Shown here piece after piece: positions 815-39,124 of a stretch of 64,000 bases of DNA (its first letter is position 1; each line of letters begins with the position of its first letter). This DNA comes from Ianthella basta (Eukaryota > Porifera > Demospongiae > Verongiida > Ianthellidae). The stretch is from the NCBI GenBank assembly GCA_964019415.1, contig OZ025876.1, positions 5,190,793 to 5,254,792 of the forward strand, in the 5' to 3' direction. A program made the position numbers and the translations under genes. The notes beneath the pieces were generated by a model. The model was given only the letters and a program-made list of their open reading frames with translations. It was not told the DNA's origin and ran no database searches.

Positions 815-3052
815 ATGGCAGCGAACATAGCAGCGCTACTCTGGTCCAGTGTAGCAGCACTACTCTGGTCCAGTGTAGCAGCACTACTACTGGCGCTTCC
901 TGAGACGTCAGAGGCACAGGCAGGTGAGAATTAGCTGTAAACGGGGTTTTGAAGTCACTGTTCCCAATATTAATGGGAAGATGGTTTCCCTAACGCACTG
1001 TTCCCTTTCGAATTTTTGTAGTGGTAGCAAGTTTGTCGGCTGATGGTGTGCGTGTTCCGGGTGGGTATGCTGTGCCAGTTGGTGGAGATATAACATTCAC
1101 CTGTGAGCATAACGGCAGCTCTCGTAGATCGCTCTTTTGGACAGTTAACATCGTTAATAGAACGGCCACAACGATTTCGTACCACCGCTCTATTTCTGGG
1201 TGATGAACCAGGTTTGAGCACTTCAGCTGCTGGTAACACAGATAATCCGGTAAATATCACCATCCACAACCTACAGCTTGCTAACAAATGGCTCTACTGT
1301 GACGTGTCAGCTTGAGAAAGAAGGATCACCATCAGCTATCATAGTAGAAGGTATTGCATCTGTGCATATAAAAATTATATTATGCAAGAAACACAGTCAT
1401 ACTTGCAGTCTGTAGTGTTTGTGTACATGATGCATAACTCTGTGTTATTGATCAACATAGGTAAGGGAAAAGATCTCCATGTCAGTGTTTCCACATGACT
1501 GTACAGCTGTCTGCCTCCCTTCATAGGTCTCCCATCATGTGCAGATGTAAACATAACATCACAAATGGACTCAGCAGTAACTGTTACAGCTAATTTGAGT
1601 GCTTCAGAGCCCCCTTGGTTACTCCCAGTTCACTTCAATATTACAGTAACTTCCAGCAATTTCCAAACATGGACAATAAGTAGCAAAACAAACAATAATA
1701 TCAACATCGCTCCAATTAAACCCATGATGGCGTATAACATCTCTGTGATTCCGTGCAATTCATTTGGATGCAATGAGGATTGTCAACAATATAGCATGAT
1801 GACACTACCAGCTGAAGGTATTACTTTAATTATTCATTGTAATGAGGTTTGCGCGTAACATATGCATCAGAAGGTATTATTTAGTTATTCATTGTATGTG
1901 TCAGATATTGCCACACTCTGCATGTCTTAGTCTATTGTCAATCTCTCTACGATACATGTCCTCAGGCAACCCTTCTGCAGACTCCAATCCTACCGACAGT
2001 GGATCAGGAGTGAATCCTGAATCATTAAATACCATAATTGGTGTGGCAAGCTGTGGCATTTTATTGATTGCTGTAGCTTTGGCCTCAGCTGTTCTAGGTG
2101 TGTGGGTAATCAAATGGTGAGTACATTCTCTTCATACATTGACTTTTGCATTACAGAAATTACACCTACAAGTTGTACAACAGTAACAGTTGCTTAATCC
2201 ATCTTTCTTATAGGAGGAGAGATAAGACTCATGTGAACAGTGCTAGCATTGAGGTGAGATAGTGCTGCTGCATGTACATTGCCACCTATGTACTGTAGAA
2301 TAGTAATGTATGTATACATAATAATGCACATATGTGTGTAACATATATATTGTCTATGGATGACATTTGTATGGGTCAGACATTGTATGACATTGTATGT
2401 ATGATTATGTGCTTATGCATAATTATGTGTATGTATGCATGTATAATATAATGCATGTATGTATGTATGTACCTAACTATGCTTGCATGCATGGACTTGT
2501 GTATAACACTGCACCATTGATTATATCTACCATTCAAATTCTCAACAGAGAGCTACACCTGAAGGGAAATCAACACCAATAGTCAATTCAGTGAGTGAGT
2601 ATGCTGCTGTTTGTGATTGTGTGAGCTCATTGCAAGCACCACTGCCGGACAGCAAGTCACAGATTCCAGAAAATAGGGCCATTGACACTGTTGGCTATGG
2701 AGAGGTTCTCCACAGTGCCCCTAAGCTTCAGCGTGTCAGGAGCAGCAACTACTCCAGCAAGTCCATTAATGGCAGACATCAGAATCAAGCAACCAGTGTG
2801 CCCACATATGCCAGTGTACTTGATGTCATGCAACACAATCAATCATCAGAAAAGACTGCATTCAACACTGCCACAACTGAAGACTCCCCACCTCCCCCCA
2901 TCTCACACCGTGACTTGGATGTGTTGCAAGATTTAGGCTATTCAGTTTTGCCATGCAACCACAAATCAGACAAAGCTCCTCAACCTCAAAGCCCCTGTAG
3001 GAGCAGCACTGGCAGTGTGCCTACGGAAACAGCAGTTGAAGTGGCACAGTGA
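815..3052 (+). pseudogene. IgR1: Ig-like/FN3-like receptor with ITIM tail, frameshifted copy
   Basis: First of three paralogues with one exon plan: 815-923 (signal peptide), 1022-1350 (Ig-like domain), 1527-1817 (FN3-like domain), 1966-2116 (stalk and TM helix), 2214-2253 (juxtamembrane), 2549-3052 (cytoplasmic tail). All introns are GT-AG. The signal peptide contains an internal duplication of the segment AALLWSSV. Compared with IgR2 and IgR3, exon 2 carries two single-base frame changes, one near 1170-1190 and one near 1289 (an extra A), so translation stops at about 1201. Exons 3-6 remain open and keep the tail tyrosine motifs, including SEYAAV, VGYGEV and LGYSVL. It is probably a recent pseudogene; a sequencing error in exon 2 is the alternative. 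As a protein it would be a type I membrane receptor at the cell surface. Confidence 0.8.
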
Positions 3053-4075
3053 TCAGTTCTTTCATCGAATCCTATTGTAAGTCTTATTCAATATGAATCA
3101 TGAGCATGATGCTGCTATGCATTCATACTATTAAGTAGTCTTGAGTCATTCAAAATTCCGTTAAGTTTTGGTGACAACCCCTCCTGCATGGCTTACAGCT
3201 TCCTGTTTTAAAAAGTGTACATATGGCTTGGTCTGAGTAGGGCATAGAGATAGAAGACATTCATTCATCCTCTGTATTGTTACCAACTCTACAGGCTATT
3301 CACGCATCCAGAGTGCTTCATATGTACCAGGACAGTCGTACAGTTGTGTATTACAAGTTACCTAGAGGTTTGTACAATGCACTAACTATCGACTACATTA
3401 TATTGTTGTAATGCCAGTGTGTGAAATGGTTGTCTTTTTGAGTGACAATACATACAATTTAAGTATAGCTACATTTGTGAGTACCACATAGTCTCTTACT
3501 ACTCAGCTATCAATTCATTGCAGTACTCTCATTAGTGTGTGTATGACTGTGAATCACTTAAACCATAAAATTGCCATTAATGGTGTGTCTACACAGCATT
3601 GTTGTACATGGGCCTGATGTTTACAGTAATAGAGTCATAATACAGTATAAACCATTATAATATGTATACTTATGCACAGTCAGTTAGAGCTACATAGGGA
3701 AAACACTGGCACATTATTGATTCATAACCTGTGCACTGTGGTGATGGCAGACAAGACCGACTGCTGGCCTACAGAAGAGCACACTATAGAAGACATTTGG
3801 CGTTAGCTTATATTATGATTCGAGCTCTACACAAATGTAAAGACAAACATATAATGTATGTGTGATTTATATGTAAATAATCTGCTTGTGTACATTCATT
3901 CTAAGTGCCTGCTTAGATTGACTATGAGGTGTGTGTAGCTACTGCAGTATGTAGAAACTGATGAGATTGAGTTGTATCACTATAGAGTAGCACAATACAG
4001 TCTAAACTCTGCAGTTTCAGTTATATTGTAATATTGCTGTCCCAGCAGTGTTAGCCTGACAGGGTGGCACCACAA
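3053..4075 (+). repeat. 3' block of the Ig-receptor unit, copy A
   Basis: Starts at the IgR1 stop codon and includes its 3'UTR. It is collinear with 18601-19700 and 39125-40145, and with the remnant at 23795-23882 plus 30252-31095. Similarity ends near 4075, where unique sequence begins. Open frames in one copy are broken by stops and indels in the others, so the block is non-coding. Confidence 0.75.
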
Positions 4076-5551: not shown

Positions 5552-5591
<40 letters not shown>

Positions 5592-6764: not shown

Positions 6765-7901
6765 ATGCAACAGCTTGGGTGGGATAGGTTGGGCGAGTCT
6801 GACATGTCTCCAAACAGTCAGCCTCCCTGGCCACAATAGCACTAACAAAATGTAAACCATATTGCAGCCTACCTTTATAAGGCAGGTACAGTACCTCTCG
6901 AATAAAGGCTGGCCGATTGTGTGTGTATGTTACACATGTATAGTGTGTAGGAATATACAACGTGTGTGCTCACCTTCGATCCATATCGGCTAAGAGTGAT
7001 GAGGTGAAATACAACAGGCATGAATGCACTACCAGCACTAATGGACAATTACTAGGAAAGGCACTATTCTTAGAAAGACTAGTCTACCGTAGCCCAGACT
7101 CAAATTCAGTCTTTGCATGTTGAAACATAAATATGGAAGCTGGAATTTGTTGGCTAGTGAAACTGCAGATAGAATATGCCTTGAAATAGTCACTGCACCA
7201 CAATGCAGCACTGTGAACTACAGTCCATGCAGTGTACTAGCTACTGGGACAAGAGGTATTCATTCATAAGTCATGTAATAATGCACTGTGAGTTACAAAA
7301 ACAGTCTTTCAGGTCAATCCTTCCTATTTCACTACAGTGTGCACGCTTTATTGTGCGTCTGTATGCCTGTGTGTGTATATTTATAATGGATTGTGTATTT
7401 GTGTGTGTTTGTGCATGTGTATGTGTATGTACGTGTATGTGTATGTGTATGTGTGTATATATGTGTGTGTGTTCCACGCACACTCATCTACTAATAATGA
7501 AATAAGCAACAATCATGTGAATTCTGTATAGCTACTGTACCTCTGAAAAGAAGTAGAGGCCTGGGCCTCTATTCTGACAAATACAGTAAAATTAATTCAA
7601 ACAGATTCTAGGCATGGAAGACCTGCAGTGAGTTGGGGGAGCAGGTCTCCCAAATGCTTTGCTGAACACTTGTTTTCATAATAAGAAGCATTCATGATGG
7701 CTACTCTGTGAGACTGGCCGGAAAGGCTACTGCCACACTGTGCACCCAAATGCTGATTGAGTAACTGCTGGGAAACCTATTCCACACAGCTGGGTGAACA
7801 CTGTTGAAGAATTGCACGTAATGTTAATAAAGGATGCATGTGTTATAATTCAGCGAACAGGAAACTGAACAGAATTCAAAGCAGCTGGCACTGGAAAGAG
7901 G
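6765..7901 (+). repeat. Upstream block of the 7TM-receptor unit, copy 1
   Basis: Collinear with 31096-32240 at high similarity, including a short TG-rich microsatellite at about 7370-7475 that is matched at 31690-31815. It holds the presumed promoter and 5'UTR of the 7TM gene. No other element was seen. Confidence 0.75.
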
Positions 7902-9389
7902 ATGGAAGAAGAGCTGAGAAACATCTCAAATTCAAGTACTACCACTTGTCAAGCCTTGCCAGATCCTGGTTTCACTGCCTTTGTCATTGTCTTGGCAGTA
8001 ACTCTTGTTCTTGTAATCCTCCTCAATGGATTGATAGCTATCATGTTACTATGGGCAACATCAGTGGCCATACAAGTTCGCATCCTAGTAGTAAATCTTT
8101 TGGTGGCAATTCTGATTGTAGCTGTTGTATGGCTATGTGTAGTTCTCTATTCATTGGCACTTGCTCTAGGATATGCGAGTGAGCCTTCACTACCATTCTG
8201 TCGCTTTGCTATCTTTGTCTTTGCTTTTACGGTACAAGGTAGGATTCTTGGATTGACTTTACTTTCAGCAATGGTGCTTCAGCCAGTTGCATGTGGTACG
8301 GCAGAGAATGGGGCCAAGTGGTCGATGTACAGCTTGGCACCATGCTGGGTAATTGCATTCATCTTAACCTTTCATATCCTTATGCCAGAGACATTCTCCT
8401 CCTCCTCCTTATCTTTCTCAACTTTTCTCTTCACCAAACCCTCACTACAACACTCGTTCCTATTCTTAGCTACTTGCCAACTCAATCTGCCTTCTTCAAG
8501 AACTTGCTTCGGGCAAAAGGCTTTCAGTTTTGATGGTGCTTCTTGTGGCGGTCTTTTCTGAAGAACATCAGAACATGTGCAGACTTCAGAGCTTTTTCAA
8601 AACTCTGTGAGGCATACTTATTGTGAACAGTGTCCTTACTATCTCTCAAGAACATTATTTCAATTTACTCCAACTTTTTAGGTATTTATCAGTTGCATGA
8701 AATTGACCCATTAACATAGCTTAGCCAAAATATTTAGTTTATATTTCCACTATTTAATAAAATTTTGCTTGTTTGTACTAGTGTTTGTTTGTGTTCATGT
8801 ATTTTGCCTTTCTTTTCTGGGTGTCATTTACAGTAGCCATTGGCTAACGGTTCCCCAGGTAAAATAAGAATACCTGATACCTGATACCTGATATGCAGTT
8901 CAGTATGTTGAGTGCATAGCCTGCTACCCCAGTAGGGTAGATGGTGTCGCATATCAAGTTATTGGGTTGACAAAAACCTTCCTTTGGTTAATGATTGGAT
9001 CAGCTATTCCTCTGTTGATGTACATCTGTATTCCACTGGGCACGCTGTGCTACATCAAACAACACTCCATTTCAAAAGGAGATAAATACAGCTTTTTTGC
9101 AAAGTTTGCAGCCTTCCTCATTCCTGGCAGCTTTTTAACAGTCTTGGCTCAGGTTACAGCCATAATTCTTGCAATAGTATCAACAGACATTGTTGGGGTG
9201 TATGTCTCATGCACCATTGCTTACATATTATACTTTCCTACGCCAATACTGGTTATTGTGTTTCTGAAACCAGTTCAGAAACAGCTACGTTACCTATTCT
9301 GCAGCAAGTGCCCGAAATGCAATGAAGCCATTCCAATGCAACAAGCAGAACCACCTAAGCTGCAATTTGAAATGCAACAGTCATTGTAA
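7902..9389 (+). pseudogene. 7TM1: rhodopsin-like 7TM receptor split by an insertion
   Basis: One-exon gene with an intended product of about 330 aa. The start at 7902 (MEEELRN) gives a short extracellular N-terminus with an NSS glycosylation site. TM1 and TM2 follow, with LLNGLIAIML and NLLVAILIV resembling the class A Asn motifs. Then come a Cys before TM3, TM4 ending at MPET, a Cys-containing loop 2, TM5 with a Pro, TM6, and TM7 with a TP in place of the usual NPxxY, then a basic tail and CSKCPKC. No DRY motif is seen after TM3, so assignment to class A is tentative. The frame is interrupted after MPET by a 498-bp insertion (8395-8892), and read-through stops at 8561. The downstream part (8893-9389) is still open. 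The ligand is unknown. Confidence 0.75.
8395..8892. mobile_element. 498-bp retroposon-like insertion inside 7TM1
   Basis: Absent at the matching place in 7TM2 (about 32690), where ACAT is followed directly by ATGCAGTT. The insert begins with a pyrimidine-rich TCTCCTCCTCC stretch and ends with three tandem TACCTGA heptamers (8871-8891), like the short tandem tails of some non-LTR retroposons. It has no GT...AG boundaries, so it is not an intron. Only an ambiguous AT could be a target duplication. The family is unknown. Confidence 0.75.
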
Positions 9390-10654
9390 TCCGCATTCAC
9401 ATGCAAACACAATGGACGATTGTATGCTCTTCTGTGTAGTGTATCAAGCAACGTTTTAGTGCTTTTCTTATTCACTGAAACATGTACTACTCAAGTGTTC
9501 CTGAAAACAGTGATATTGGTAATGTGTTTCATTTATATAATATGCACATGGCCATTGGTTGGTAGGTACTCATGATCATGTGCAGTGATTGACACACACA
9601 CTGGTGCATTCCATTTAAACTGACTAGTTGAAAGTTGAAAGCAGCCCAGTCCTGGAGTTGCAATATATGATGTTTACAGCATGAACCACCTTCATTACTA
9701 GAGTGCACCATGCCAATAGGCACTAGGACACATCATGGTCCAATGTAGCACTGCACACATCATGCGCCATGGGAAATGCAGTGATACAGATTAGTACCAC
9801 GTAACAAAAAACTGGGGTCAATGTTTATATAGGGCGTGACAGATTGCTTGATAGCATGTATAATATTAATAGAACCTAGCTGAACACATGGAGCTAATAA
9901 TAGACAGTATATATACGATAGTTCTTACAGGCCAGAGACAATACAAGGGCTTCTCTCTTGATCCCTCCATGGCTTCCAGACGAGGGCTGCCTGAGATGGT
10001 CCCATGCAGAGCACTGCAAAAGCCAATAGCATACATCCTCCACCTCTCCACTGTCACATTGCTTGCATACCCTCTCCTCTCTTTTCATATATGTTATCAC
10101 CAATCCATAAATGTTGACAGATGTCATCAATATTCGTAGAGTTGATTAGTGGAGTTGAGCTTGGCAGTTGCCTATGCATTCAGGAATTAATGTTTAATTG
10201 TTGATGATACAGTGTATGGTGATTGCCAGACAGAAGAAAGCCCAAGCCAGGACAAGGTAAGAGATAATTTCATGAAGCAGGAAGAGGATTGGTTTAAAAG
10301 CCTGCCTGGGAGAAGATTAACACTATACATCGACATGCTGATTTAGGAACCTTCCAAGTGTATAGAGGTTGAGGCAATTAATATTATAACTAAAACATGC
10401 TTTAGACCTGAACGACACCCCAATATATATATGTTACGCGCATACCTCCAACCTGTGCAAACCTCCAACTATTGCCCACGTGACTGGAATGGGGTTACGT
10501 CATTTACGCATACATATATTTATACATTTGGTGAACTCATCCTCTGTCATGGACCAAAACGTCTCCTATTTTGAATGTGCCCTCCATGCACTTGTGACTC
10601 TTGTCCCACTTAGTCTCTCTTCCTGCACCATTCCATGCAGATATACGTAGGTCA
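9390..10654 (+). repeat. Downstream block of the 7TM-receptor unit, copy 1
   Basis: Patchily collinear with 33190-34770, for example 9500-9660 with 33310-33480 and 10140-10430 with 33960-34240. It ends at the left target-site copy of the Penelope-like element (10643-10654). Apart from the retroelement remnant listed separately, nothing else is evident. Confidence 0.6.
9930..10115 (-). pseudogene. Remnant of a retroelement RT C-terminus
   Basis: The minus-strand translation contains ERVCKQCDSGEVEDVCYWLL followed by QCSAW. This is a CxxC...GEVED...C signature that I know from the C-terminal ends of reverse-transcriptase-like proteins of non-LTR elements. It is short and has no other domain, so only a fossil fragment is supported. 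A related, more degraded piece lies at about 35690-35790. Confidence 0.45.
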
Positions 10655-10696
10655 TGTTGATATTTCTAAAAGACACTAGCCAAAGGGGATCAGGTA

Positions 10697-10738
10697 TCAG
10701 ACGTTTCGGCAGCACTACGGCTGCCTTCATCAGTGATT
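10697..10738 (-). ncRNA. Hammerhead ribozyme motif in Penelope-like element, inverted copy
   Basis: Reverse complement of the motif at 12622-12663: core CTGATGA, stem II GGCAGC/GCTGCC, then GAAAC and GTC. Confidence 0.7.
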
Positions 10739-10939
10739 ATAATGACACTTACAAGCAGGTGTATAAATAGGGGGGTGGTCACGTGAGGCATTGGTGTTTA
10801 CAGGAAAAGCATACATCATGTAATGTCTCTAGTGTTTACAGAATTAAGCATACATCATGCAATGTCTTTAACCAGAACAAGGGTTAAAATAATAAGTGAA
10901 AATGAAATAATACTAATAACGGATGGACGGTTACATAAA

Positions 10940-11603
10940 TCAATCTAGAAGGGTTGCATAGAGCCCTGGCATGGGGCCCCTCTCTCTGTTGAGAGGGGCT
11001 TGCTGGTGTTGAATGTGCCAAGACTCTAGCAAGCACCGGGTCTGGGTGTGCGGATGGTAGTCAATCACCGATGCCTTCGACAGGTCAACCTGGTGGCCAG
11101 CTGTAAACACATGCTCAGCAACAGCCGAAGCAGTAACATCTCCATTCTTCAGGGCCCGACGATGCTCCTGCAGGCGCAGGTCCAGTGACCTCCCAGCCTG
11201 TCCAATGTAGGTGCGGGGGCACTCAGCACACGGGATGCTGTAGACCACCCCCTTCCTTTTGGACACCGGGACAGGGTCCTTGGGGTGGACCAACATCTGC
11301 CTCAGAGTAGTGAAAGGGCGGAACATCACCCGAATGGAGAGGGGGCTGAGGATACGTCTAATTGACTCTGACAGACCCTTGATGTATGGGAGAGTCAGAG
11401 TGGTGCACGTCTCGTCACATTGTGAGGTTTCATCGCCCCTGGGACATGTCTGCTTCTTGATGAACCCCTTGGGGTACCCGTTCTTCTGGAGGGCCTCCAT
11501 CACATGCTTCTCCTCTTGTACTCGGCTCACTGCTGATGACGACAGACTTTCGGCCCTAGACATCAGAGTTCTCACCACAGACCGCTTGTGTGCCACTGGG
11601 TGG
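10940..11603 (-). CDS. GIY-YIG endonuclease part of the Penelope-like protein, inverted copy
   Basis: The minus-strand frame encodes the C-terminal part of the polyprotein: a Cys-rich linker (CPRGDETSQCDETC) and then a GIY-YIG nuclease. GVVYSIPC and TYIGQAGRS are the GIY and YIG motifs, followed by the R of LQEHRRALKNG. It ends with a conserved ARG-rich tail and stop at 10940. The translation from HPVAHKRSVV onward is identical to the forward copy at 11682-12419. It is cut at the head-to-head junction near 11603 and has no RT of its own, so it is not an independent gene. The nuclease nicks target DNA during insertion. Confidence 0.85.
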
Positions 11604-11681
11604 ATCCCAACATCCAGTTTACTGTGGAGAAGGAGAAGGATGGACAACTTGCCTTCCTTGACATCCTCTTGAGTCGGGACA

Positions 11682-12419
11682 GTGAAGGTTCCATCAGCAC
11701 CTCAGTCTATACGGAAGCCCACACATACTGACCAGTATTTGAACTTTCAATCTCACCACCCAGTGGCACACAAGCGGTCTGTGGTGAGAACTCTGATGTC
11801 TAGGGCCGAAAGTCTGTCGTCATCAGCAGTGAGCCGAGTACAAGAGGAGAAGCATGTGATGGAGGCCCTCCAGAAGAACGGGTACCCCAAGGGGTTCATC
11901 AAGAAGCAGACATGTCCCAGGGGCGATGAAACCTCACAATGTGACGAGACGTGCACCACTCTGACTCTCCCATACATCAAGGGTCTGTCAGAGTCAATTA
12001 GACGTATCCTCAGCCCCCTCTCCATTCGGGTGATGTTCCGCCCTTTCACTACTCTGAGGCAGATGTTGGTCCACCCCAAGGACCCTGTCCCGGTGTCCAA
12101 AAGGAAGGGGGTGGTCTACAGCATCCCGTGTGCTGAGTGCCCCCGCACCTACATTGGACAGGCTGGGAGGTCACTGGACCTGCGCCTGCAGGAGCATCGT
12201 CGGGCCCTGAAGAATGGAGATGTTACTGCTTCGGCTGTTGCTGAGCATGTGTTTACAGCTGGCCACCAGGTTGACCTGTCGAAGGCATCGGTGATTGACT
12301 ACCATCCGCACACCCAGACCCGGTGCTTGCTAGAGTCTTGGCACATTCAACACCAGCAAGCCCCTCTCAACAGAGAGAGGGGCCCCATGCCAGGGCTCTA
12401 TGCAACCCTTCTAGATTGA
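11682..12419 (+). CDS. GIY-YIG endonuclease part of the Penelope-like protein, forward copy
   Basis: Forward partial copy that begins in the last residues of the RT (about 11608) and continues through the linker and the GIY-YIG domain to a stop at 12419. One extra base in the stretch around 11708-11712, compared with the RT copy at 14375, shifts the RT tail out of frame with the endonuclease. The ATG at 11682 is therefore only the first in-frame Met. It shows where the endonuclease follows the RT in the ancestral protein, joined after YLNFQS. The EN domain itself looks intact. Confidence 0.85.
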   Translation: MKVPSAPQSIRKPTHTDQYLNFQSHHPVAHKRSVVRTLMSRAESLSSSAVSRVQEEKHVMEALQKNGYPKGFIKKQTCPRGDETSQCDETCTTLTLPYIKGLSESIRRILSPLSIRVMFRPFTTLRQMLVHPKDPVPVSKRKGVVYSIPCAECPRTYIGQAGRSLDLRLQEHRRALKNGDVTASAVAEHVFTAGHQVDLSKASVIDYHPHTQTRCLLESWHIQHQQAPLNRERGPMPGLYATLLD

Positions 12420-12621
12420 TTTATGTAACCGTCCATCCGTTATTAGTATTATTTCATTTTCACTTATTATTTTAACCCTTGTTCTGGTTAAAGACATTGC
12501 ATGATGTATGCTTAATTCTGTAAACACTAGAGACATTACATGATGTATGCTTTTCCTGTAAACACCAATGCCTCACGTGACCACCCCCCTATTTATACAC
12601 CTGCTTGTAAGTGTCATTATA

Positions 12622-12663
12622 ATCACTGATGAAGGCAGCCGTAGTGCTGCCGAAACGTCTGAT
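12622..12663 (+). ncRNA. Type I hammerhead ribozyme motif
   Basis: ATCA (12622-12625) pairs with TGAT (12660-12663) as stem I. CTGATGA is at 12626-12632. Stem II pairs GGCAGC (12634-12639) with GCTGCC (12646-12651). GAAAC is directly followed by the cleavage triplet GTC (12657-12659), so stem III is reduced to one pair. Minimal hammerheads of this form are known from Penelope-like elements and are thought to cut best as dimers. Confidence 0.75.
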
Positions 12664-12702
12664 ACCTGATCCCCTTTGGCTAGTGTCTTTTAGAAATATC
12701 AA

Positions 12703-14518
12703 CATGAATCTGCCTAGCCACTCAGGCCTTTACAGCATCGTTCGAGAGGAATATGGCGTACAAGCGCTCCAATCCGTGAGGTATTACGTGAATACAGCAA
12801 GTAAGATTAGCCGCACCCGTCAACACATCGCCTTCAGCCAGAGATGCCGCCGCTATCAGTTGCTTCCGCGCAGTCTCACCGTCAAGCCGCTAGTCCCCAC
12901 ACCCGAGGGCCGTCGCGTTGCGGCGAGGGCCGGCTGGCAGTTCATGTCGGCACGCGTAAGTCATTGCTACGGAGAGCTACGCAGGCTGGAAACGGACCTT
13001 TTCTTCCAGAAACGACAGTTGGAGCACGTTTTCAGTTCACGGCATGCTGTGACCATCGAGGAACACAAGAATGAGGTGCAGTACAAGGTGTCAAATTCGT
13101 CCAAGGAGCGGCAAAAGAAGAAGTTTGACGCCCTGTTAGCAAGACAAGCCTCCTCCCAGAAGAATGACAGTCGCCATGTGGTCAACTTGTCTTCCGAGCG
13201 TCTTACTGATCCACAAGTGTCTGCTTTGTCCAGAGGTCTGAACTTTGCTCCCACCCCTAAAGTTGTCCCCAAAGCCCACATAGTGGCAGGTGTGGAGACA
13301 GCCATCACACAGTCAAAAGCAAGTGAGAACCTGGCCACCAAGGCCCGAATTGGTTTGATTGGTGCTCTCAGCCGTGCAGTGTTGCCTCCTAGGAACACCC
13401 TACCCGATGAGATGAAGGCAGTGAGAGAGCTTGCTAGGGATGCAGACATCATTATACTCCCTGCGGACAAGGGCAAGTCGACTGTGGTAATGGACCGTAG
13501 TGACTACAGGACCAAAGTGCAAGCCTTGCTAAGTGACCGGGACACCTATCAACCAATGGCCAAGGACCCAACCGGTGCCCTAGAGAGGAAGATGAACAGC
13601 ACCTTGTGGAGCCTCAGACAGAAGAACCTACTGTCAGATGGAGTTTACCGTCGCCTCCGCAGCTCAGCAGGTGGAGTTCCCCGCTTGTATGGCTTACCAA
13701 AAATCCACAAGCCAGGCATCCCCCTCCGGCCAATTGTGTCCTTTGTGTCGTCTCCGACTTATGAACTCTCCAAGTTCCTGGCATCTTTGCTGTCGCCCTG
13801 TGTCGGGTTAACAAACCACCATGTGGAGAACTCGGGACAATTCACCCAGTTCATCACTACTCAAACTTTGACAGACACAGACGTCCTGGTGTCCTTTGAC
13901 GTGGTCTCGTTGTTCACCCGTGTGCCCATTGCCCGTGCACTTCAGGTGTCTCGTGACAGATTGGAGAGGGACCCCTTGCTACCTGAGAGGACTTGCCTCA
14001 GCGTGGATGACATCTGCAACCTCCTTGGTCTCTGCCTGGATGCAACTTACCTGTCATTTGAGGGCACAGTCTATCGACAGGTCCATGGAACGGCAATGGG
14101 GTCACCTGTGTCAGTTGTTGTGGCCAATCTTGTCATGGAGGACATTGAGCAGGAAGCTCTGTCCACATTCCACTCTCCCCCACTTTTCTGGAGGAGGTAT
14201 GTGGACGACACGTGTACTGCGCTCCCCCTGGACCTGGTTGACTCCCTCCACCAGCACCTGAACAGTGTGGATCCCAGCATCCAGTTTACTGTGGAGAAGG
14301 AGAAGGATGGACAACTTGCCTTCCTTGACATCCTCTTGAGTCGGGACAGTGAAGGTTCCATCAGCACCTCAGTCTATCGGAAGCCCACACATACTGACCA
14401 GTATTTGAACTTTCAATCTCTCTGTTACATGATGTATGCTTTTCCTGTAAACACCAATGCCTCACGTGACCACCCCCCTATTTATACACCTGCTTGTAAG
14501 TGTCATTATAATCACTGA
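12703..14518 (+). CDS. Penelope-like reverse transcriptase lacking its endonuclease
   Basis: Open frame from 12629; the Met at 12703 (MNLPSHSGLYSI) is the likelier start because upstream codons lie in the ribozyme-bearing pLTR. The N-terminal part is a basic helical region. RT motifs follow in order: ADKGKSTVVM, YGLPKIHKPG with PLRPIVS, motif A FDVVSLFTRVP, motif B GTAMGSPVSVVVANL, motif C YVDD, then FLDILLSR and VYRKPTHTDQYLNFQS. These are the hallmarks of the Penelope RT, which is related to telomerase. After residue YLNFQS (14418) the sequence jumps to the pLTR, so the GIY-YIG domain is missing and about 33 spurious codons are added. All RT catalytic Asp residues are present. Confidence 0.9.
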
Positions 14519-14552
14519 TGAAGGCAGCCGTAGTGCTGCCGAAACGTCTGAT
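14511..14552 (+). ncRNA. Type I hammerhead ribozyme motif, 3' pLTR copy
   Basis: Same bases as 12622-12663: CTGATGA at 14515-14521, GAAAC at 14541-14545, GTC at 14546-14548, and TGAT at 14549-14552 closing stem I. Confidence 0.75.
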
Positions 14553-14722
14553 ACCTGATCCCCTTTGGCTAGTGTCTTTTAGAAATATCAACATGAATCT
14601 GCCTAGCCACTCAGGCCTTTACAGCATACGTAGGTCAGGAAAATTGATGCTTTGTATGCAAAGAGCTCAATATTAGTACCATGGTGACCATTCTTGATAT
14701 ATAATTATACAGACTCATTGCC

Positions 14723-16338: not shown

Positions 16339-18600
16339 ATGACAGTGCTACTCTGGTCCAGTGTAGCGGCACTACTACTGGCATTTCCTGAGACGGCTGA
16401 GGCACAGGCAGGTAAGAATCAGCTGTCTTTAAAGTTGTTGCTCACAGCGTTAATAGGAAGCTGGTTAATTCTCCCAAACGTGCTCTTCTCTTCCTTTCTT
16501 ACAGCGGTGGTAAATTTGTCAGCCGATGGTACCCGTGCTCCCGGTGGGTATGTTGTGCCAGTTGGTAGAGATATCACATTCACCTGTGCGCACAATGGCA
16601 GCTCTGAGCGATCGCTCTTTTGGGACATTTTCATTGCTAACGGTTCGGCCTCATGGCCTCCTAACACTGCTTACAATTTGCGTGATCAACAGGGTTTAAG
16701 CTCTTCAGCAAGTGACAATACAGATAATCCAGCAAACATCACCATCCACAACCTACAGCTTGCTAACAATGGTTCTACTGTGAGGTGTCACTTTCAGGCA
16801 AATGGACCACCAATAATTATCTTAGTGGAAGGTATTGCATCTGACAGTGTGCACCACGTCAATTTAAAACGTTCACAAGAATATATAACTTGACATGTCT
16901 GCATAATGTAGTTAAATTACATAAGATAAATTGGTCTTCGTGACAGTTTTTCCCATACTAAAGCTGTAGTGCTGTCTTCCTCACAGGTGTGCCATCATGT
17001 GCAGCGGTAGATGTTAGTCCACGAATTGACACAGAAGTAACAGCTACTTTGACTGCATCAGATCAACCCTGGTTTCTCCCAGTTTGTTTTAATGTTACCA
17101 TAACTTCCAGTGACTCGAGTTCCCAGGCAAGGTCATTCAGAACCAAAATGAATAATATCAGAATCCCTGAAATTCAACACTTGACAGCTTATAACATCAC
17201 TGTGATTCCTTGTAACTCATTTGGTTGCAATGACTTTTGTCAACATTTTGCAGCAAAGGTACCTGCATTGCCAACAGAAGGTACTGCTCATTGTGTGCAT
17301 TGAAATTTCAAACTGAATTTGAATGTGCCTTACAATATTGTTAATCTTTCACTGTCATACAATTTCCTCAGATAACACATCTGCAGGCTCCAATCCCAGT
17401 AGTGGACCAAGAATGAGTTCATCAATTGCCATAATTGGTGTAGCAAGCTGTGGCATTTTATTGATTGTTGCAGCTCTGGCCTCAGCTGTTCTAGTTGTGT
17501 GGGTAATTAAATGGTGAGTACATTCTCTTCATACACAACTTTAGCATTACAGAAATCACACTTATAAGTTGTACAACAGTTGCTCAATCCATCTTCCTTA
17601 TAGGAGGAGAGATAAGACTAATATGAACAGTGCTAGCATTGATCATGAGGTGAGCTATAATTATAGTGCTGCGCTGCATTGCATTGACACCTACAGTAGA
17701 ATGAAGTGATGCAATGATGCAAGTATACATAATATTATGTTTGCATGTGTATATCTATGTATGACATTGTATGCATGTATGATGTGCTTATATATGCATG
17801 ACTGTGTATGTATGCGAATTAAATATAATGCATGCATGTATGTATCTCCCTAACTATGCTTGCATGCATGCACTTACCATTAGTTTTCTGCCATTTCAAC
17901 ACATAGCTGTAGGTCTAGTTCTAGTAAAACGTTTCAACCACAAGGGTCTTAATTAGTTTTGTAACTGATGAAGACCCTCATGGTCGAAACGTTTTACTGG
18001 AACCAGACCTACACGTGAATGCTCAATGCTCCATAAATCTGCTAGACATTGTAGAATGAGGCTCTACCACATTATTTCAATTCTCAACAGAGAGCTACGC
18101 CTGAAGGAAAATCAACACCAATAGCCAATTCAGTGAGTGAGTATGCTGCTGTTCGTGATTGTGTGAGCTCATTGCAAGCACCACTGCCAAACAGCAAGTC
18201 ACAGATTTCAGAAAATAAGGCCATTGACACTGTTGGCTATGGAGAGGTTCTCCACAGTGCCCCTAAGCTTCAGCGCGTCAGGAGCAGCAACTACTCCAGC
18301 AAGTCCGTTGGTGGCAGACAACAGAATCAAGCAACCAGCATGCCCACATATGCCAGTGTACTTGATTGTGGTGTCATGCACCACAATCAATCATCAGAAA
18401 GGACTGCATTCAACACTACCACAACTGAAGACTCCCCACCTCCCCCCATCCCACACCGTGACTTGGATGTGTTGCAAGATTTAGGCTATTCAGTTTTGCC
18501 ATGCAACCACAAATCAGACAAAGCTCCTCAACCTCAAAGCCCCTGTAGGAGCAGCACTGGCAGTGTGCCTACGGAAACAGCAGTTGAAGTGGCACAGTGA
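16339..18600 (+). CDS. IgR2: Ig-like/FN3-like receptor with ITIM tail
   Basis: Intact six-exon gene, 463 aa: 16339-16411, 16505-16831, 16987-17280, 17372-17513, 17604-17649, 18091-18600. Every intron is GT-AG and the frame is kept throughout. Residues 1-24 form a signal peptide (LLWSSVAALLLA core). Residues 25-134 are an Ig-like domain: Cys in ITFTC, Trp in LFW, and the second Cys in STVRC. Residues 135-232 are an FN3-like module with AYNITVIPCNSFG. A stalk leads to TM helix IAIIGVASCGILLIVAALAS. The tail of about 180 aa has SEYAAV, VGYGEV, PTYASV and LGYSVL. Three fit (S/I/V/L)xYxx(I/V/L), the form that recruits SH2 phosphatases in ITIM receptors. Likely role: cell-surface recognition with inhibitory signalling. 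That role is inference. Confidence 0.88.
17909..18012 (+). ncRNA. Hammerhead-bearing foldback element in IgR2 intron 5
   Basis: A 104-bp imperfect palindrome found only in this paralogue. Its right half reads GTAA (17961-17964), CTGATGA (17965-17971), stem II GACC/GGTC, GAAAC (17986-17990), GTT (17991-17993) and TTAC (17994-17997). That is a complete minimal hammerhead core, with stem I closed by GTAA/TTAC and an allowed NUH cleavage triplet. It is absent from intron 5 of IgR1 and IgR3, so it is a recent insertion, perhaps a retrozyme-like element. Confidence 0.7.
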
Positions 18601-27014: not shown

Positions 27015-28173
27015 CTGTGCGCCTGGGGAGTTGCCTCGAAGAAAACCTGCATGTGGTTATGAGAGACAGCATCAGCTGGAGTGTTGGAACTCCCTGGGAT
27101 GTGCTCAGCCCTCAGTTTAAAGTCACACCTAGCACAGAAAAAATGGATGCACCACAGTAAGTGCATTAAGATGTGGTCTTTGCATGACTGGCCATGGGCA
27201 GTGATCACTTGGACCACAGCCATGTTGTCGCACTGGACCAATACCTGTTGGTGATGCCATTCTGCGCCCGAAATGGCACATGCAACAGCGATGGGGACTA
27301 GCTCTTTAGCAGCGATGCTCTGTGGTATCCATTCTTCATCCCATGAATGCTGTACCCATGCCTGTCGCCAGACTGCGCCACAGCCCCATGCACCAGAGGC
27401 ATCTGAGGAAAAGATGACAGTCGGAGTCCATTTTGGATTGTGGACCTCCATCATGCTCCGTGCATTCCAAACTGAAATGAAGGTCTCCCACCAAGCCAAG
27501 TCAGCTTGGAATTCGGCATCCAGCTTGACCCTATGGTCTGGGTGTCTTGCCTTCGTGGATAGATCTATCATGCGTCTTAAAAAGGCTCGGCCTGGGTGCA
27601 CCACCTTGCAGGCATGTGAGAGCTTCCCCACTAGTGACAGTAATTCACGTTTCTTGCAGGCTTTCTTGGACTTCCACAGCCTGATCAGTGCCTTCAATTC
27701 CTTTAAATAGCTTGGTCCACGGTTGGATACTGTACTGAGCATAACTGAGGGTTGATCCCGTTGTTGACACTCCTGTGAGGTGGCGAGGATAGATCCAGGA
27801 TCAGGCGCCACTCTCCATTCTTCTTAGGTATCACCCCAAATCTGCTCACCTGCACTAGGGGGATGTCTGATCTCAGGAATGGCCCGGCAATCCTGCCCGC
27901 TGCCAGCTCAGTGGCTAGGTACTGCTCTACTGGCCTGGGGTTCCTTGCAGCTGATAACATGTTTGCCGATAGCGACGATCTCCTACTGCTGGCCTGGTCT
28001 GGGTGCTGGCGTAGGAGGCCCAGCACCCAGCAGTGTGGGAGTAATGGCGTGACAATGTGGGAGGCTGATGAAGGGATTGAGATGAGGTGTTCGGGTGTAG
28101 GCTTACAACTCTCTAATTGAATCAACTGGTTAGTGTCTATGTGTCCTATACAAAATAAATCATCTGTATTCAT
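26903..28173 (-). pseudogene. DIRS-like RT/RNase H with RT core deleted
   Basis: The first frame (28173-27703) holds the start of the RT: LRSDIPLVQVSRFGVIPKKN, WRLILDLS and SVNNGI. It stops just after PTVDQAI. The second frame (27811-26903) resumes at LKELKALIRLWKSKKACKKRELLSLVGKL, the connection domain, then an RNase H with FSSDASGAWGCG, AAKELVPI, QCDNMAVV and AEHIPGSSNTPADAVS. The RT palm with its FDI, LPFG and YxDD motifs is missing between them (junction near 27710-27720). So about 150-200 residues were lost and the frame changed. Confidence 0.85.
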
Positions 28174-28288
28174 TGGAGGTGCTGTTTCTCTAATTGGGTG
28201 TTGACAGGGGCCATCAAAAGGTTCCCAGTGGGTAATCAGGTCTGGATCATGTGGAAAATCATGGTTTACTGCAACTGACTCTATCTGC

Positions 28289-29554
28289 TCACTTCCGCGG
28301 GCCTCTGCGGAGGCCCCCTCGCGGAAAGGGGGGACTTGGGTTGTCTGAGGCCGTCTCTGCTAAACTTCTGGTCACTCTGCATGCTTTAGCTGGGTGTCCT
28401 GGTGAGTGACAGTCCATGCAAATATGATTAAATTTGCAATGGAGCCGTGTGCAGCGGCTGAAGTTCCATGCCCTGCAGATCTCGCCTGGGATGGAGTAGG
28501 GAGCAGTTGCTCTCTGACGGGCAGCTCTTGACCCCGTAGCCACCTCGCTGGGCCCCTCTGGACCCCCATCTTTCGTGGGGGACGGGACAATTGCCAAACC
28601 ACTGGCACCCTTTGATAACTTTGCACTTGTGAAATAGTTAGTCCAAAGAGACGCGTCTACCTGTGACCATTGAGTCAGCCTGTTGGCTGCTGCCAATCGT
28701 CTGAAGTGGGCATCGTATGCCAGCCATGGGGTCCCTTCATAGTCAAGACTGGCTTTTGTGATCATTGATGAGTAGCCGAGCAGGTCCTGCACACGCTTGG
28801 GGTGCTTGAGAGCCATTACGCTGATGACCGAGTTGAAGCAGACCACCCACTGCTGGATTGACGTAATCCTTTTCGGTTCCTTGGGTTTGTCTCTGTTTGA
28901 CATCAAGTCCCTCAGTGTTACCTCAGGGGCTCCCAGCCTGCTGGGAAGCAGCTCACTTAGCTCAACAAATTCCCCCTTCCAAATCTTTTCAGCTAGCTTT
29001 CTTGGGACTGGGGGGGGGGAGTGGATACCCACGGGGACTGCCTCGTTAGACGAGGGGGCAGGAAGTGGTGGAAGTAGGCTTGCTAGGGGTGTCATCGGCT
29101 GGAGCCCTGAGCCATGTTCCACAGTTGCTGGGCTGCCCAGGCTCATGATCGGGGTGAGGCTGCTACTGCTCGCTGGACCCGCTGTGGGCACTGCCGGCAT
29201 CACTGGCATGCCTGACAGAGCAGTGGTTGGGGACAACAGACCCCCACTGGGCATGCTAGCTACCCCCACGCTACCCACTGGGAACGTACCATTGGGATTT
29301 GTGCTGGCTGGGGCTGCTTGAGTCACCAAGCACTGGTCCACCATCTCTCTGAGGTCGCAGGTCGTGTCTGCGACCGCTGCTCTCACCGTGTCTTTCACCA
29401 AGGACTGCACTAGCTGCAACGCTCTCTGGTTTTCCTCCGTCAGAGGTCGTTGCTGCCCCGCCGTGGGTGTGGGGGCCCCTTCGGGATTCTCTGCCATCGC
29501 TGCCGGATGCGTGCTCAACAATGAGTCAGTTCTGTTGGCTTGGGGGTTGCCCAC
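28289..29554 (-). CDS. DIRS-like gag protein with Cys/His motif
   Basis: 421-codon uninterrupted frame. The first 200 residues are low-complexity and rich in Pro, Ser, Ala and Thr. The middle part has an SRLGAPEVTLRDLM segment and a conserved-looking helical region (SIQQWVVCFNSVISVMALKH). Near the C-terminus a Cys/His cluster begins CRAWNFSRC and ends CKFNHICMDCHSPGHPAKAC, as in gag proteins of DIRS-like elements. The Met at 29554 is the first in frame; a second, MAENPEG, lies 18 codons later and is equally plausible. It is the only open reading frame of the element that looks whole. Confidence 0.75.
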   Translation of the reverse strand: MGNPQANRTDSLLSTHPAAMAENPEGAPTPTAGQQRPLTEENQRALQLVQSLVKDTVRAAVADTTCDLREMVDQCLVTQAAPASTNPNGTFPVGSVGVASMPSGGLLSPTTALSGMPVMPAVPTAGPASSSSLTPIMSLGSPATVEHGSGLQPMTPLASLLPPLPAPSSNEAVPVGIHSPPPVPRKLAEKIWKGEFVELSELLPSRLGAPEVTLRDLMSNRDKPKEPKRITSIQQWVVCFNSVISVMALKHPKRVQDLLGYSSMITKASLDYEGTPWLAYDAHFRRLAAANRLTQWSQVDASLWTNYFTSAKLSKGASGLAIVPSPTKDGGPEGPSEVATGSRAARQRATAPYSIPGEICRAWNFSRCTRLHCKFNHICMDCHSPGHPAKACRVTRSLAETASDNPSPPFPRGGLRRGPRK

Positions 29555-30251
29555 ATTCGCTTAGGTCACCAGGGCCAACAGCTTGGCCCGCCAACACTGA
29601 GCACGTGATCCCTGCCCCTCTGCACATGCAGCTGGATGCTTGCCGGACCCTCCGTGTTAACGAACTTTAACCCATTAAAGTGTCAGTGAAGAGCAGCTGC
29701 GTCAGCCATTTTGCGGACACACGTGACCTTGACCGACCCCCTGCTATTTATTCCCATTCCAATTGTAAGCGCCCTTGGGCATTGGAAATAATCAGGCGGC
29801 GCCTAAATTATTGGAGCAGAATATATTATTCTGCACTATACTGCATGTGCTGAACATGAGACAGCGAAATGGCGGCCCTCATGGAATACTTTAACCGCGT
29901 CGCTGCTTCATTTATGTCCACAGAACGTGGGAGGAAGATGGTTAGGCGGGTCAAGCGACCAGTGGGGAGACTAAGGAAGTGCCCATTGGAACCGAGTGGC
30001 GCAGGCTGACAAAGGAATAGCGAGGAACCCACAAGTGCCAAGTCCAGTCGATGCCAGTACACCGCGAAACAAAAGCAGCGTGCTGTTCTGTACGCTGGTG
30101 CTCAAAAGTAGTATTCCGCTCTAATACATGTACTAGGCGCCCTTCTAATTGAAGTGCCCCTTGGTCATTGCATATTTTTGGCTGTTCTAATAAGAAGCGC
30201 CTTTCAGTGCTGGAATTATTCTTAAGGGTGCCTATATTAGAAACTATACGG

Positions 30252-31095: not shown

Positions 31096-32240
31096 TTGCT
31101 TGGGTGGGATAGGTTAGGTAAGCCTGACATGTCTCAGCAGCCAGCCAGCCTCCCTGACCATAATAGCACTAACAAAATGTAAACCATATTGCAGCCTACC
31201 TTTATAAGGCAGGTACAGTACCTCTCGAATAAAGGCTGGCCAATTGTGTGTGTATAGTGTGTAGGAATATACAACATGTGTGCTCACCTTCGATCCATAT
31301 CGGCTAAGAGTGATGAGATGAAATACAACAGGCATGAATGCACTACCAGCACTAATGGACAATTACTAGGAAAGGCACTATTCTTAGAAAGACTAGTCTA
31401 CCGTAGCCCAGACTCAAATTCAGTCTTTGCATGTTGAAACTTCAATATGGAAGCTGGAATTTGTTGGCTAGTGAAACCGCAGATAGAATATGCCTTGAAA
31501 TAATCACTGCACCACAATGCAGCACTGTGAACTACAGTCCATGCAGTGTACTAGCTACTGGGACAGGAGGTATTCATTCATAAATCAATAATGCATTGTG
31601 AGTTACAAAAACAGTCTTTCAGGTCAATCCTTCCTGTAATCATATTGACTGCTGTCACTACAGTGTGCACACTTCATTGTGTGTCTGATGTGTGTCTGTA
31701 TGTCTGTGTGTGTTTATTTATAATGGATTGTGTATTTGTGTGTGTTTGTGCATGTGTATGTGTATGTACGTGTATGTGTATGTGTATGTGTATGTGTGTA
31801 TATGTGTGTGTTCCACGCACATGCACTCATCTACTAATAATGAAATAAGCAACAATCATGTGAATTCTGTATAGCTACCTCTGAAAAGAAGTAGAGGCCT
31901 GGGCCTCTATTCTGACAAATACAGTAACATTAATTCAAACAGATTCTAGGCACGAAAGACCTGCAGTGAGTTAGGGGAGCATTCCGGTCTCCCAAATCCT
32001 TTGCTGAACACTTGTTTTGATAATAAGAAGCATTCATGATGGCTATATTGTGAGACCGGCCGGAAAGGCTACTGCATCCAAATGCTGATTGAGTGACTGC
32101 TGGGAAACCTATTCCACACAGCTGGGTGTCTGAACACTGTTGAAGAATTGCACATAATGTTAACAAAGGATGCATGTGTTATAATTCAGTGAACAGGAAA
32201 CTGAACAGAATTCAAAGCAGCTGGCACTGGACAGAGTATC
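31096..32240 (+). repeat. Upstream block of the 7TM-receptor unit, copy 2
   Basis: Paralogous to 6765-7901, with a TG-rich microsatellite at about 31690-31815. No other feature. Confidence 0.75.
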
Positions 32241-33189
32241 ATGGAATAACAGCTGAGAAACATCTCAAATTCAAGTTCTACCACTTGTCAAGCCTTGCCA
32301 GATCCTGGTTTCACTGCCTTTGTCATTGTCTTGGCAGTAACTCTTGTTCCTGTAATCCCCCTCGATGGATTGGTAGCTATCATGCTACTACGGGCAACAT
32401 CGGTGGCCGTACAAGTTCGCATCGTAGTAGTAAATCTTTTGGTGGCAATTCTCATTGTAGCTGTTGTATGGCTATGTGTAGTTCTCTATATTCATTGGCA
32501 CTTGCTCTAGGATGTGAGTGAGCCTTCACTACCATTCTGTCGCTTTGCTATCTTTGTTTTTTCTTTTACGGTACAAGGTAGGATTCTTGGATTGACCTTA
32601 CTTTCAGCAATGGTGCTTCAGCACAGCTTGGCACCATGCTGGGTAATTGCATTCATCTTAACCTTTCACATCCTTATGCCAGAGACATATGCAGTTCAGT
32701 ATGTTGAGTGCATAGCCTGCTACCCCAGTAGGGTAGATGGTGCTGCATATCAAGTTATTGGGTTGACAAAAACCTTTCTTTGGTTGATGATTGGATCTGT
32801 TATTCCTCTGTTAATGTGCATGCATATTCCGCTAGGCACGCTGTGCTACATCAAACGGCACACCATTTCAGAAGGAGATAAATACAGCTTTTTTGCAAAG
32901 TTTGCAGCCTTCCTCATTCCTGGCAGCTTTTTGGCTCAGGTTGCAGCCATAATTCTTGCAATAGTATCAACAGACATTGTTGGGGTGTATGTCTCATGCA
33001 CCATTGCTTACTTATCCTACTTCCCATGCCCCATGGCCAACGCCAATACTGGTTATTTAGTTTCTGAAACCAGTTCAGAAACAGCTACGTTACCTATTCT
33101 GCAGCAAGTGCCTGAAATGCAATGAAGCAATCCCAATGCAACAAGCAGAACCACCTAAGCAGCAATTTGAAATGCAACAGTCATTATAA
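32241..33189 (+). pseudogene. 7TM2: rhodopsin-like 7TM receptor, decayed copy
   Basis: Paralogue of 7TM1 without the 498-bp insert, so it shows the normal continuity through MPETYAVQYVEC. It is broken in other ways. The third codon is TAA (after ATG GAA). A two-base insertion near 32490 shifts the frame into a TAG and is compensated about 25 bases on by a two-base loss. There is a 45-bp in-frame deletion after the TM3 segment, and an indel in TM7 near 33035-33050 destroys the tail frame. TM5 and TM6 read cleanly (LTKTFLWLMIGS, FAAFLIPGSF). It is a pseudogene; the two copies decayed independently. Confidence 0.8.
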
Positions 33190-36911: not shown

Positions 36912-39124
36912 ATGGAAGCGAGCATGGCAACGCTACTCTGGTCCAGTGTAGCGGCACTATTACTGGCGCTTCCTGCGACGCCAAAGGCACAGATAGGTGA
37001 GAATTAGCTGTAAACGGGCTTTAAAATCGCTGTCAGTCCCAATTTTCATGGGAAGATGGGTTTCCCTAACGGAGTAACGCACTGTTCCCTTTCGAATTCT
37101 TATAGTGGTAGCAAGTTTGTCGGCTAATGGTACCCGTGTTCCCGGTGGGTATGCTGTGCCAGTTGGTGGAGGTATAACATTCACCTGTGAGCATAACGGC
37201 AGCTCTAGTAGATCGCTCTTTTGGACAGCTATCATTGTTAATAGAACGGCCACACAGACTCCTACTACTGCTTTATTTTTGAAGAATGAAACAGGATTTA
37301 GCTCTACAGCCAGCCGCAATACAGAAAATCCAGCGAATATCACCATCCAGGACCTACAGCTGGTTAACAATGGTTCTACTGTTAAATGTCAGCTTGAGAC
37401 AGAAGGAATGCCAACAGTTATCATAGTCGAAGGTATTGCATCTGTGTACCTTTCACGTTAGTATATATCTGTGCTAGAAATTCTTATACTTGCAATCAAT
37501 AGTGTTTGTATGTGTTATGCGCATACCTCCAACCTGCTATACATGACATGATTTGTAACTCTGTGTTATTTACCTACATAAGATGAAATGATCTTCATTT
37601 CAGGGCTTCCAGATTGTACAGCTGCCTACCTTCCTCATAGGTCTCCCATCATGTGCAGTTGTAAACATAACATCACAAATGGACTCAACATTAACAGCTA
37701 CTTTGAGTGCTTCAGATATCCCTTGGTTTCTCCCTGTTCGTTTCAATATTACAGTGACATCTGGCAATTTCCAAACATGGAGTATTAGTAGCAAAATGAA
37801 CATTAATATCAACATTGCTTCAATTCAACCCATGATGGCCTTTAACATCTCTGTGACTCCATGCAACTCAAATGGATGCAATGAGGGTTGTCAACAATAT
37901 AGCATGACACTACCAGCTGTAGGTATTACTTTAATTATTCATTGTAATGAGGTTTGCGTGTGACATATGCATGAGATATTGCCACACTTTGCATGTCTTA
38001 GTCTACTGTCAATCTCTCTGTGATACATGTCCTCAGACAACCCTTCTGCAGACTCCAATCCCCCTACCAACAGTGGATCTGATCCAGAAAATAATTCATT
38101 AAAAGTCATAATTGGTGTGGCAAGCTGTGGTATTTTATTGATTGTTGCAGCTCTGGCCTCAGCTGTTCTAGGTGTGTGGGTAATCAAATGGTGAGTACAT
38201 TCTCTTCATACATTGACTTTTGCATTACAGAAATTACACCTATAAGTTGTACAACAATTCCTTAATAATTCAACTTCCTTACAGGAGGAGAGATAACTTA
38301 AAGGCTCATGTGAACAGTGCTAGCATTGAGGTGAGATAGTGCTGCTGCATGCACATTTGTATTGACACCTGATGCATGTGATGCATATGAAGTGATGCAT
38401 GTATATGCATGCATATGTATATCTATGTATGACATTTGCATAAATCAGACATTGTATCACGTATCACATTCTATGATTATGTGCATATGCATATGTGTAT
38501 GTATGCATGTAAAATGTAATGCATGCATGTATGCATGTACCTAACTATGCTTGCATGCATGCACTTGCGTATGACACTGCACCATTGATTTTCTACCATT
38601 CAAACTCTCAGCAGAGGGCTACACCAGAAGGGAAATCAATGGCAATAGCCAATTCAGCAAGTGAGTATGCTGCTGTTCGTGATTGTGTGAGCTCAGTGCA
38701 AGCACCACTGCCAAACAGCCAGTCACAGATTCCGGAAAATAGGGCCATTGACACTGTTGGCTATGGAGAGGTTCTCCACAGTGCCCCTAAGCTTCAGCGC
38801 GTCAGGAGCAGCAACTACTCCAGCAAGTCCATTAATGGCAGACATCAAAATCAAGTAACCAGCATGCCCACATATGCCAGTGTACTTGATTGTGGTGTCA
38901 TGCACCACAACCAATCATCAGGAAAGACAGCATTCAATACAGCCAGAACTGAAGACTCCCCACCTCCCCCCATCCCACAACGTGATTTGGATGTGTTGCA
39001 AGATTTAGGCTATTCAGTTTTGCCATGCAACCACAAATCAGACAAAGCTCCTCAACCTCAAAGCCCCTGTAGGAGCAGCACTGGCAGTGTGCCTACGGAA
39101 ACAGCAGTTGAAGTGGCACAGTAA
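36912..39124 (+). CDS. IgR3: Ig-like/FN3-like receptor with ITIM tail
   Basis: Intact six-exon gene, 467 aa: 36912-36996, 37106-37432, 37641-37922, 38037-38190, 38285-38330, 38615-39124, with GT-AG introns and kept frame. Signal peptide MEASMATLLWSSVAALLLAL. The Ig-like domain has Cys in ITFTC, Trp in LFW and Cys in STVKC, with several NxS/T sites. The FN3-like module contains AFNISVTPCNSNG. TM helix VIIGVASCGILLIVAALAS. The tail has SEYAAV, VGYGEV, PTYASV and LGYSVL plus the proline run DSPPPPIPQ. The Ig domain is roughly two thirds identical to that of IgR2, while the tails are over 90% identical by eye. This is the likeliest functional copy together with IgR2. Neighbours: THADA 3' end to the right, 7TM2 to the left. 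Confidence 0.88.

Follow-up and report, generated by a model that had tools for sequence, protein, structure and literature searches.

Putative Ig/FN3 surface receptors with ITIM-type tails form a multigene family in the sponge Ianthella basta

What kind of receptors are encoded by three paralogous genes of the sponge Ianthella basta, and what may they do on the cell surface? The genes, here called A, B and C, lie in a stretch of 64,000 nucleotides (assembly GCA_964019415.1, contig OZ025876.1, positions 5,190,793 to 5,254,792 of the forward strand), which is the window of this analysis and part of the contig called C9 below. A preliminary description of the window had proposed a tandem cluster of recognition receptors with an immunoglobulin (Ig)-like domain, a fibronectin type III (FN3)-like domain, one transmembrane (TM) helix and a tail bearing immunoreceptor tyrosine-based inhibitory motifs (ITIMs). 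The answer which we favour, with rather more confidence than doubt, is that these genes belong to a family of paired surface receptors having inhibitory long-tailed members and short-tailed members.

Domains and tails of the predicted receptors

The three paralogues with one six-exon plan, two of them fully open, were confirmed by the exon model and by the open frames of B (463 aa) and C (467 aa), and the intron phases are 1-1-1-2-0 in both. Exon 2 of gene A is 329 bp long as against 327, and the two extra bases destroy its frame. The products are predicted to be type I membrane receptors whose ectodomain combines a single variable-type Ig domain with a single FN3 domain. The Ig fold of exon 2, which places it in the Immunoglobulin superfamily, is backed by profiles and structure prediction, and the closest solved folds (VIA-align) are the adhesion Ig domains of NCAM, SynCAM-2 and Necl-2; the Ig profile gave only weak TCR and PD-1 matches against PDB sequences (E at least 0.063), which are not taken as kinship. 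Among 22 exon 3 sequences the FN3 model PF25059 was found in 19 and PF00041 in 10. The FN3 domain of C was modelled by AlphaFold2 with a predicted local distance difference test (pLDDT) of 75.3 and a predicted template modelling score (pTM) of 0.62, its Foldseek matches are FN3 folds, the FN3 profile matched the FN3 of ROS1 among PDB sequences (8.6e-8), and the closest solved matches are Dscam, NCAM2 and ROS1. Both folds are thus supported by exon-set profiles, structure prediction and Foldseek, and the absence of folds against which the preliminary description had warned did not materialise. The Pfam scan of the full-length products gave nothing above cut-off; this null was dropped as an argument against the domains after the exon-set scans matched Ig and FN3.

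A strict ITIM was defined as [SIVL]xYxx[IVL] in the cytoplasmic tail. The tails of A, B and C each contain SEYAAV, VGYGEV, LGYSVL and a fourth Y-x-x-V, and the three strict ITIMs per tail, equalled by 5 (A), 1 (B) and 5 (C) of 5000 composition-preserving shuffles, put the proposed ITIM-type tails beyond chance. A search of a collection of 5.8 billion proteins gave 32 tail relatives at E 10. The tails P0141-P0144, from other assemblies, are 43-47% identical to that of C; DTVGYGEVxHSA(P/S)KLQRVR is kept in all four and SNYATVHDCVS (core SxYAxVxDCVS) in three, while P0144 begins downstream of this core. Because the cores around SEYAAV and VGYGEV persist in these tails and LGYSVL and (P)TYASV do not, we take the first two motifs to be the conserved core for signalling. 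Evolution of the tail exon is slow, with a pairwise ratio of nonsynonymous to synonymous divergence (dN/dS) of 0.32-0.82 at dS 0.05-0.13.

Distribution of the family and exchange of tails

The proposed tandem family of recognition-receptor-like genes was borne out and is far larger than the window. Searched against the whole genome (209 Mb in 96 contigs), exon 2 of C matched 77 places at E 10 and exon 3 of C matched 75. Before the genes were counted, 11 of the 77 Ig, 6 of the 75 FN3, 8 of 38 long-tail and 53 of 93 short-tail rows were dropped. These rows lay beyond the three clusters or were surplus pieces of A, apart from one long-tail match on the minus strand within the array and a single small fragment of FN3, also within it. 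The remaining exons were grouped into genes by position, with a new gene for each Ig exon, a chain gap of 6 kb and no splice models. This gave 57 Ig+FN3 genes, plus fragments, of which 4 are on C9, 12 at 15.3 Mb of contig C1 and 41 at 13.8-14.34 Mb of C1. The fourth C9 gene is placed just upstream of the window, at C9:5185289, and together with the window genes it is best read as a satellite of a genome-wide multigene receptor family.

The array of 41 genes holds 12 with a long tail only, 6 with a long and a short tail, 19 with a short tail only and 4 with neither, which makes 18 genes with the long tyrosine tail and 25 with the short NPxY tail. Among the 18 long-tail genes, 11 have the tail as a single open piece, and in two of the six genes having both tail exons both tails are free of stops and breaks. 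At 14.33 and 14.31 Mb of C1 a long-tail exon is followed by a short NPxY exon within one gene interval, each ending in a stop, and these may possibly be alternative 3′ exons. The window tails are 25-29% identical to the long tails of this array, a weak but reciprocal match. Four C1 long tails were examined; an immunoreceptor tyrosine-based switch motif (ITSM) is present in three, and Y-x-x-[IVL] cores are beyond chance in three (9, 29 and 10 of 5000 shuffles; 332 for the fourth). Elsewhere on C1, at 0.98-1.8 Mb, there are 40 matches to the short NPxY tail, all weak (best E 9.7e-4), and at 1.71 Mb a further Ig+FN3 gene was seen by eye beside Ig-like exons of other types, so that this region perhaps holds a further Ig receptor array.

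Ectodomains and tails do not follow the same lines of relatedness. Compared with the C1 15.3 Mb genes, gene C shows 64-75% identity in its Ig exon and 41-57% in its FN3 exon; compared with the 13.8-14.34 Mb genes, it shows 30-38% and 31-36%, respectively. A short tail of another kind, VELDANPAYISLH, closes the 15.3 Mb genes; seven copies lie there, and elsewhere in the genome it is not convincingly found (one weak match, E 0.02). The fourth C9 gene has an exon 6 that starts like those of its neighbours but contains no Y-x-x-[IVL] motif, and the Ig of C is 76% identical to that of this ITIM-less gene. Similar ectodomains are therefore found on ITIM and non-ITIM tails, which is what is looked for in paired receptors. 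Conversely, sliding identity gives 90-98% among A, B and C over the tail exon and roughly 300 bp 3′ of it, but only 68-76% between B and the other two over the Ig and FN3 exons; in the flank past the tail block it drops to 76-81% for B. Since the tail and its flank are far more alike than the ectodomain exons of B or the outer flank, the tail block has probably been homogenised by gene conversion. Near ectodomains on unlike tails together with like tails on diverged ectodomains are, as judged from the sequences, the mark of paired-receptor evolution.

A relative without ectodomain was also located, on the minus strand at C11:7451170-7457000. A splice model made by eye gives it four exons, which encode a hydrophobic leader, a short stub (some six residues), a TM helix similar to that of the window genes and a tail that shares 38-39% identity with exon 6 and contains DTVGYGEILHSAPKLQRVR. 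Both SxYAxVxDCVS and DTVGYGEVxHSA(P/S)KLQRVR, the two cores, are partly kept in this gene. The intron between leader and TM helix is about 110 bp and leaves no room for an Ig or FN3 domain, and the predicted product looks like a membrane adaptor.

Full-length C gave no match at E 10 among the 5.8 billion proteins (7995 candidates scored); single-exon profiles find relatives where it did not, because the sources hold exon-sized open frames. The Ig profile retrieved 169 proteins at E 10, and among the 120 of these matches that were listed some are 99-100% identical to the exons of this genome and others go down to about 47%. In a tree of 51 Ig exons the foreign members fall in both Ig subfamilies and tend to separate clades, with low support inside, and the subfamilies appear to reflect an old split followed by separate expansions. 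One foreign contig, 2507730, comes close to this genome in its full-length Ig exons (85-89% identity) and in its tails (86-94%). As a side observation, queries with the sponge marker silicatein and with cathepsin L match the same loci in this genome; the N-terminal and central exons favour cathepsin L and a few short C-terminal exons favour silicatein, e.g. 75 vs 53% over 32 residues.

The Ig exon evolves faster than the tail exon (pairwise dN 0.15-0.27 at dS 0.31-0.34). For the segment after the Ig tryptophan, which was picked after the pairwise window ratios had been seen, dN/dS is 1.19-1.29 vs about 0.5 elsewhere (7 independent pairs, 14 exons; Fisher 0.034 and 0.014); this does not exceed neutrality (binomial 0.31 and 0.23), and 544 of 2000 column shuffles equalled it, so that focused diversification of the segment is suggestive only. 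A stronger claim of diversifying selection in the Ig exon, based on ratios of 3.3-5.8 in overlapping 15-codon windows, was withdrawn on the 7 independent pairs. In the FN3 exon the best 20-codon window has dN/dS 1.86 (77 of 2000 shuffles), with Fisher 0.0009 and binomial 0.05, both uncorrected for the choice of the best window.

Inhibitory signalling, rival readings and known systems

In the paired-receptor reading the Ig domain would bind a surface or soluble ligand, a Src-family kinase would phosphorylate the tail tyrosines, and an SHP-2-like tandem-SH2 phosphatase would dock on two tail phosphotyrosines and damp the response of whichever cell types would carry the receptors. The short-tailed relatives, with their similar ectodomains, may compete for the ligand, signal otherwise or be endocytosed. 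This reading is supported by the gene structure, the folds, the motifs beyond chance and their conservation in other assemblies, the exchange of tails among paralogues, the low dN/dS of the tail exon and SHP-2-like SH2 exons, which occur in two runs on contig C16 and cover both SH2 domains (the match concerns the SH2 domains only). Several observations weigh against it. Neither an immunoreceptor tyrosine-based activation motif (ITAM) in the short tails nor a charged TM residue was seen in the few members viewed by eye (no systematic search was made), so that there is no sign of an activating partner in these. The absence of LGYSVL and (P)TYASV from the foreign tails belongs here too, as does the count of strict ITIMs, zero, in the four long tails examined from the 13.8-14.34 Mb array, which makes up the bulk of the family. 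The window tails match the C1 array tails weakly (E 3.7e-4, 0.01 and 0.05) and unrelated places score between them. The long tail is split or has stops in 7 of the 18 long-tail genes of that array, and stops occur in several of its Ig and FN3 exons; part of the array is therefore taken to be decaying.

Three other readings were weighed. The family may be an allorecognition (histocompatibility) complex in which the ITIM members make the animal more tolerant of its own tissue; such a role has been proposed for Alr of Hydractinia and FcoR of Botryllus. The arrangement in multigene arrays, the pairing of similar ectodomains with different tails, the gene conversion of tails and the lineage-specific clades of the Ig tree agree with it, as do the ITIM-type motifs which a review reports for candidate allorecognition genes of Botryllus and Hydractinia (PMC12065747). 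The close but not identical Ig and tail exons of contig 2507730 would also fit, but this contig could be another haplotype, individual or species, and with the diversification of the Ig segment being as weak as stated above, we regard allorecognition as plausible, though less likely than not. Innate receptors by which a filter feeder distinguishes symbionts from food or pathogens would account for big arrays with fast turnover and long and short tails, and relatives do occur among proteins from assemblies of a metagenome-rich public collection, as would be expected for a microbe-rich host; however, a single small Ig domain with no recognisable pattern-binding module leaves microbe sensing somewhat doubtful.

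The receptors could also have no inhibitory immune role and serve ordinary adhesion or developmental cell contact, with the tail tyrosines as docking sites for adaptors or trafficking proteins. The adhesion molecules among the closest solved folds of both domains point this way, as does a sub-threshold match of the B tail to the adaptor PAG (E 0.0095; 15.5 bits vs a cut-off of 27). Partners with SH3, WW or PTB domains would be suited to the proline-rich stretches and the NPxY motifs. Yet 57 arrayed Ig+FN3 genes with turnover, decay and tail swapping are unlike a conserved developmental adhesion gene, and the strict ITIMs of A, B and C exceed chance, so that adhesion alone is an explanation to which we give limited credence. 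The likelihoods worded here for allorecognition and for microbe sensing overlap with the inhibitory mechanism and are not shares of one whole; it is pure adhesion that rivals the inhibitory reading. The boldest extension of the paired-receptor reading, a KIR/LILR-like complex at the base of animals with exchangeable tails, conversion and an ectodomain-less ITIM-type adaptor, as the long-sought receptor side of sponge self/non-self recognition, is in our judgement quite improbable.

Related ectodomains on long ITIM tails and short tails, in arrays, are known from KIR, LILR and SIRP, and NITR and NILT are described likewise. The Ig+FN3 family resembles these vertebrate paired receptors in all of these respects, but its second domain is FN3 and its short tails bear NPxY or no motif, not a charged TM residue with an ITAM adaptor (by eye). 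The Alr genes of Hydractinia are clustered type I receptors of the Ig superfamily, 41 of them named, with V-set plus I-set Ig ectodomains (PMC11999971) and ITIM-type motifs (PMC12065747); the window family is alike in clustering, membership, topology and motifs and is set apart, by description only, by its one Ig and one FN3 domain. The published account of Botryllus FcoR (PMC12065747) gives a multigene Ig superfamily group with V-Ig, sushi and two C2-Ig domains and long tails having ITIMs or other tyrosine motifs, which alternative splicing can swap. In six genes of the C1 array both kinds of tail exon, long and short, lie within one gene interval; the window family has two extracellular domains only, Ig and FN3. 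Sponge surface recognition is represented in the literature by the Geodia receptor tyrosine kinase, the Geodia adhesion molecule and aggregation factors, some of them Ig-like (PMC11999971, PMC12018476). The window genes differ from the Geodia Ig molecules in their ITIM-type tails, and the Pfam scan found no tyrosine kinase domain in them. Aggregation factors are extracellular, unlike the window receptors.

An Ig/FN3/ITIM family was not found described in the open-licence literature searched, in agreement with the preliminary description, which knew of no sponge family of this exact layout; it may be described outside that literature. A recent review presents ITIM-type receptors as a common thread of allorecognition all the way from cnidarians to mammals, and it notes a lack of conservation in the proteins that are candidates for allorecognition in sponges, cnidarians and ascidians (PMC12065747). 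A large Ig/FN3 family with ITIM-type tails in a sponge would extend that signalling logic to a deeper branch and would supply concrete genes for the old problem of sponge tissue recognition. The layout of long and short tails and the ectodomain-less relative make the paired-receptor idea directly testable outside vertebrates.

Coordinates and neighbouring features

Table 1. Receptor genes of the window and features of gene C (window positions)
Feature	Position	Strand	Exons or content	Basis
Gene A	815..3052	+	815-923, 1022-1350 (Ig, broken), 1527-1817 (FN3), 1966-2116 (TM), 2214-2253, 2549-3052 (tail)	Borders from GT-AG sites and paralogy
Gene B	16339..18600	+	16339-16411, 16505-16831 (Ig), 16987-17280 (FN3), 17372-17513 (TM), 17604-17649, 18091-18600 (tail)	Open; GT-AG at all borders; single terminal stop
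Gene C	36912..39124	+	36912-36996, 37106-37432 (Ig), 37641-37922 (FN3), 38037-38190 (TM), 38285-38330, 38615-39124 (tail)	Open; GT-AG at all borders; single terminal stop
Ig domain of C	37111..37431	+	One exon
FN3 domain of C	37646..37921	+	One exon
Tail exon of C	38615..39124	+	SEYAAV, VGYGEV, (P)TYASV, LGYSVL, SPPPPIP	Motif count and relatives elsewhere
Tail exon and about 300 bp of 3′ flank	38697..39434	+	High identity among A, B and C	Sliding identity

By self-comparison of the window, A, B and C lie in duplicated blocks together with a gene that looks by eye like one with seven transmembrane helices (7TM). Its two copies, at 7869-9389 and 32144-33125, encode several hydrophobic helices, are about 89-91% identical in DNA and resemble G protein-coupled receptors (GPCRs) by eye; the exons tried gave no Pfam 7TM match. 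A long conserved gene of many exons occupies about 42000-64000 of the minus strand; Pfam scans of three of its exons yielded nothing convincing, and two of its exons had no match in PDB. Open reading frames (ORFs) of a probable mobile element, presumably DIRS-like, lie at 25237-29560 on the minus strand; one of them matches phage integrase below the threshold (PF00589, E 8.1e-4). A further mobile element at 10652-14631, which we take to be Penelope-like, contains a reverse transcriptase-like ORF at 12623-14518 (PF00078, E 6.6e-6, just short of the cut-off) and has a 952-bp inverted copy with 100% identity.

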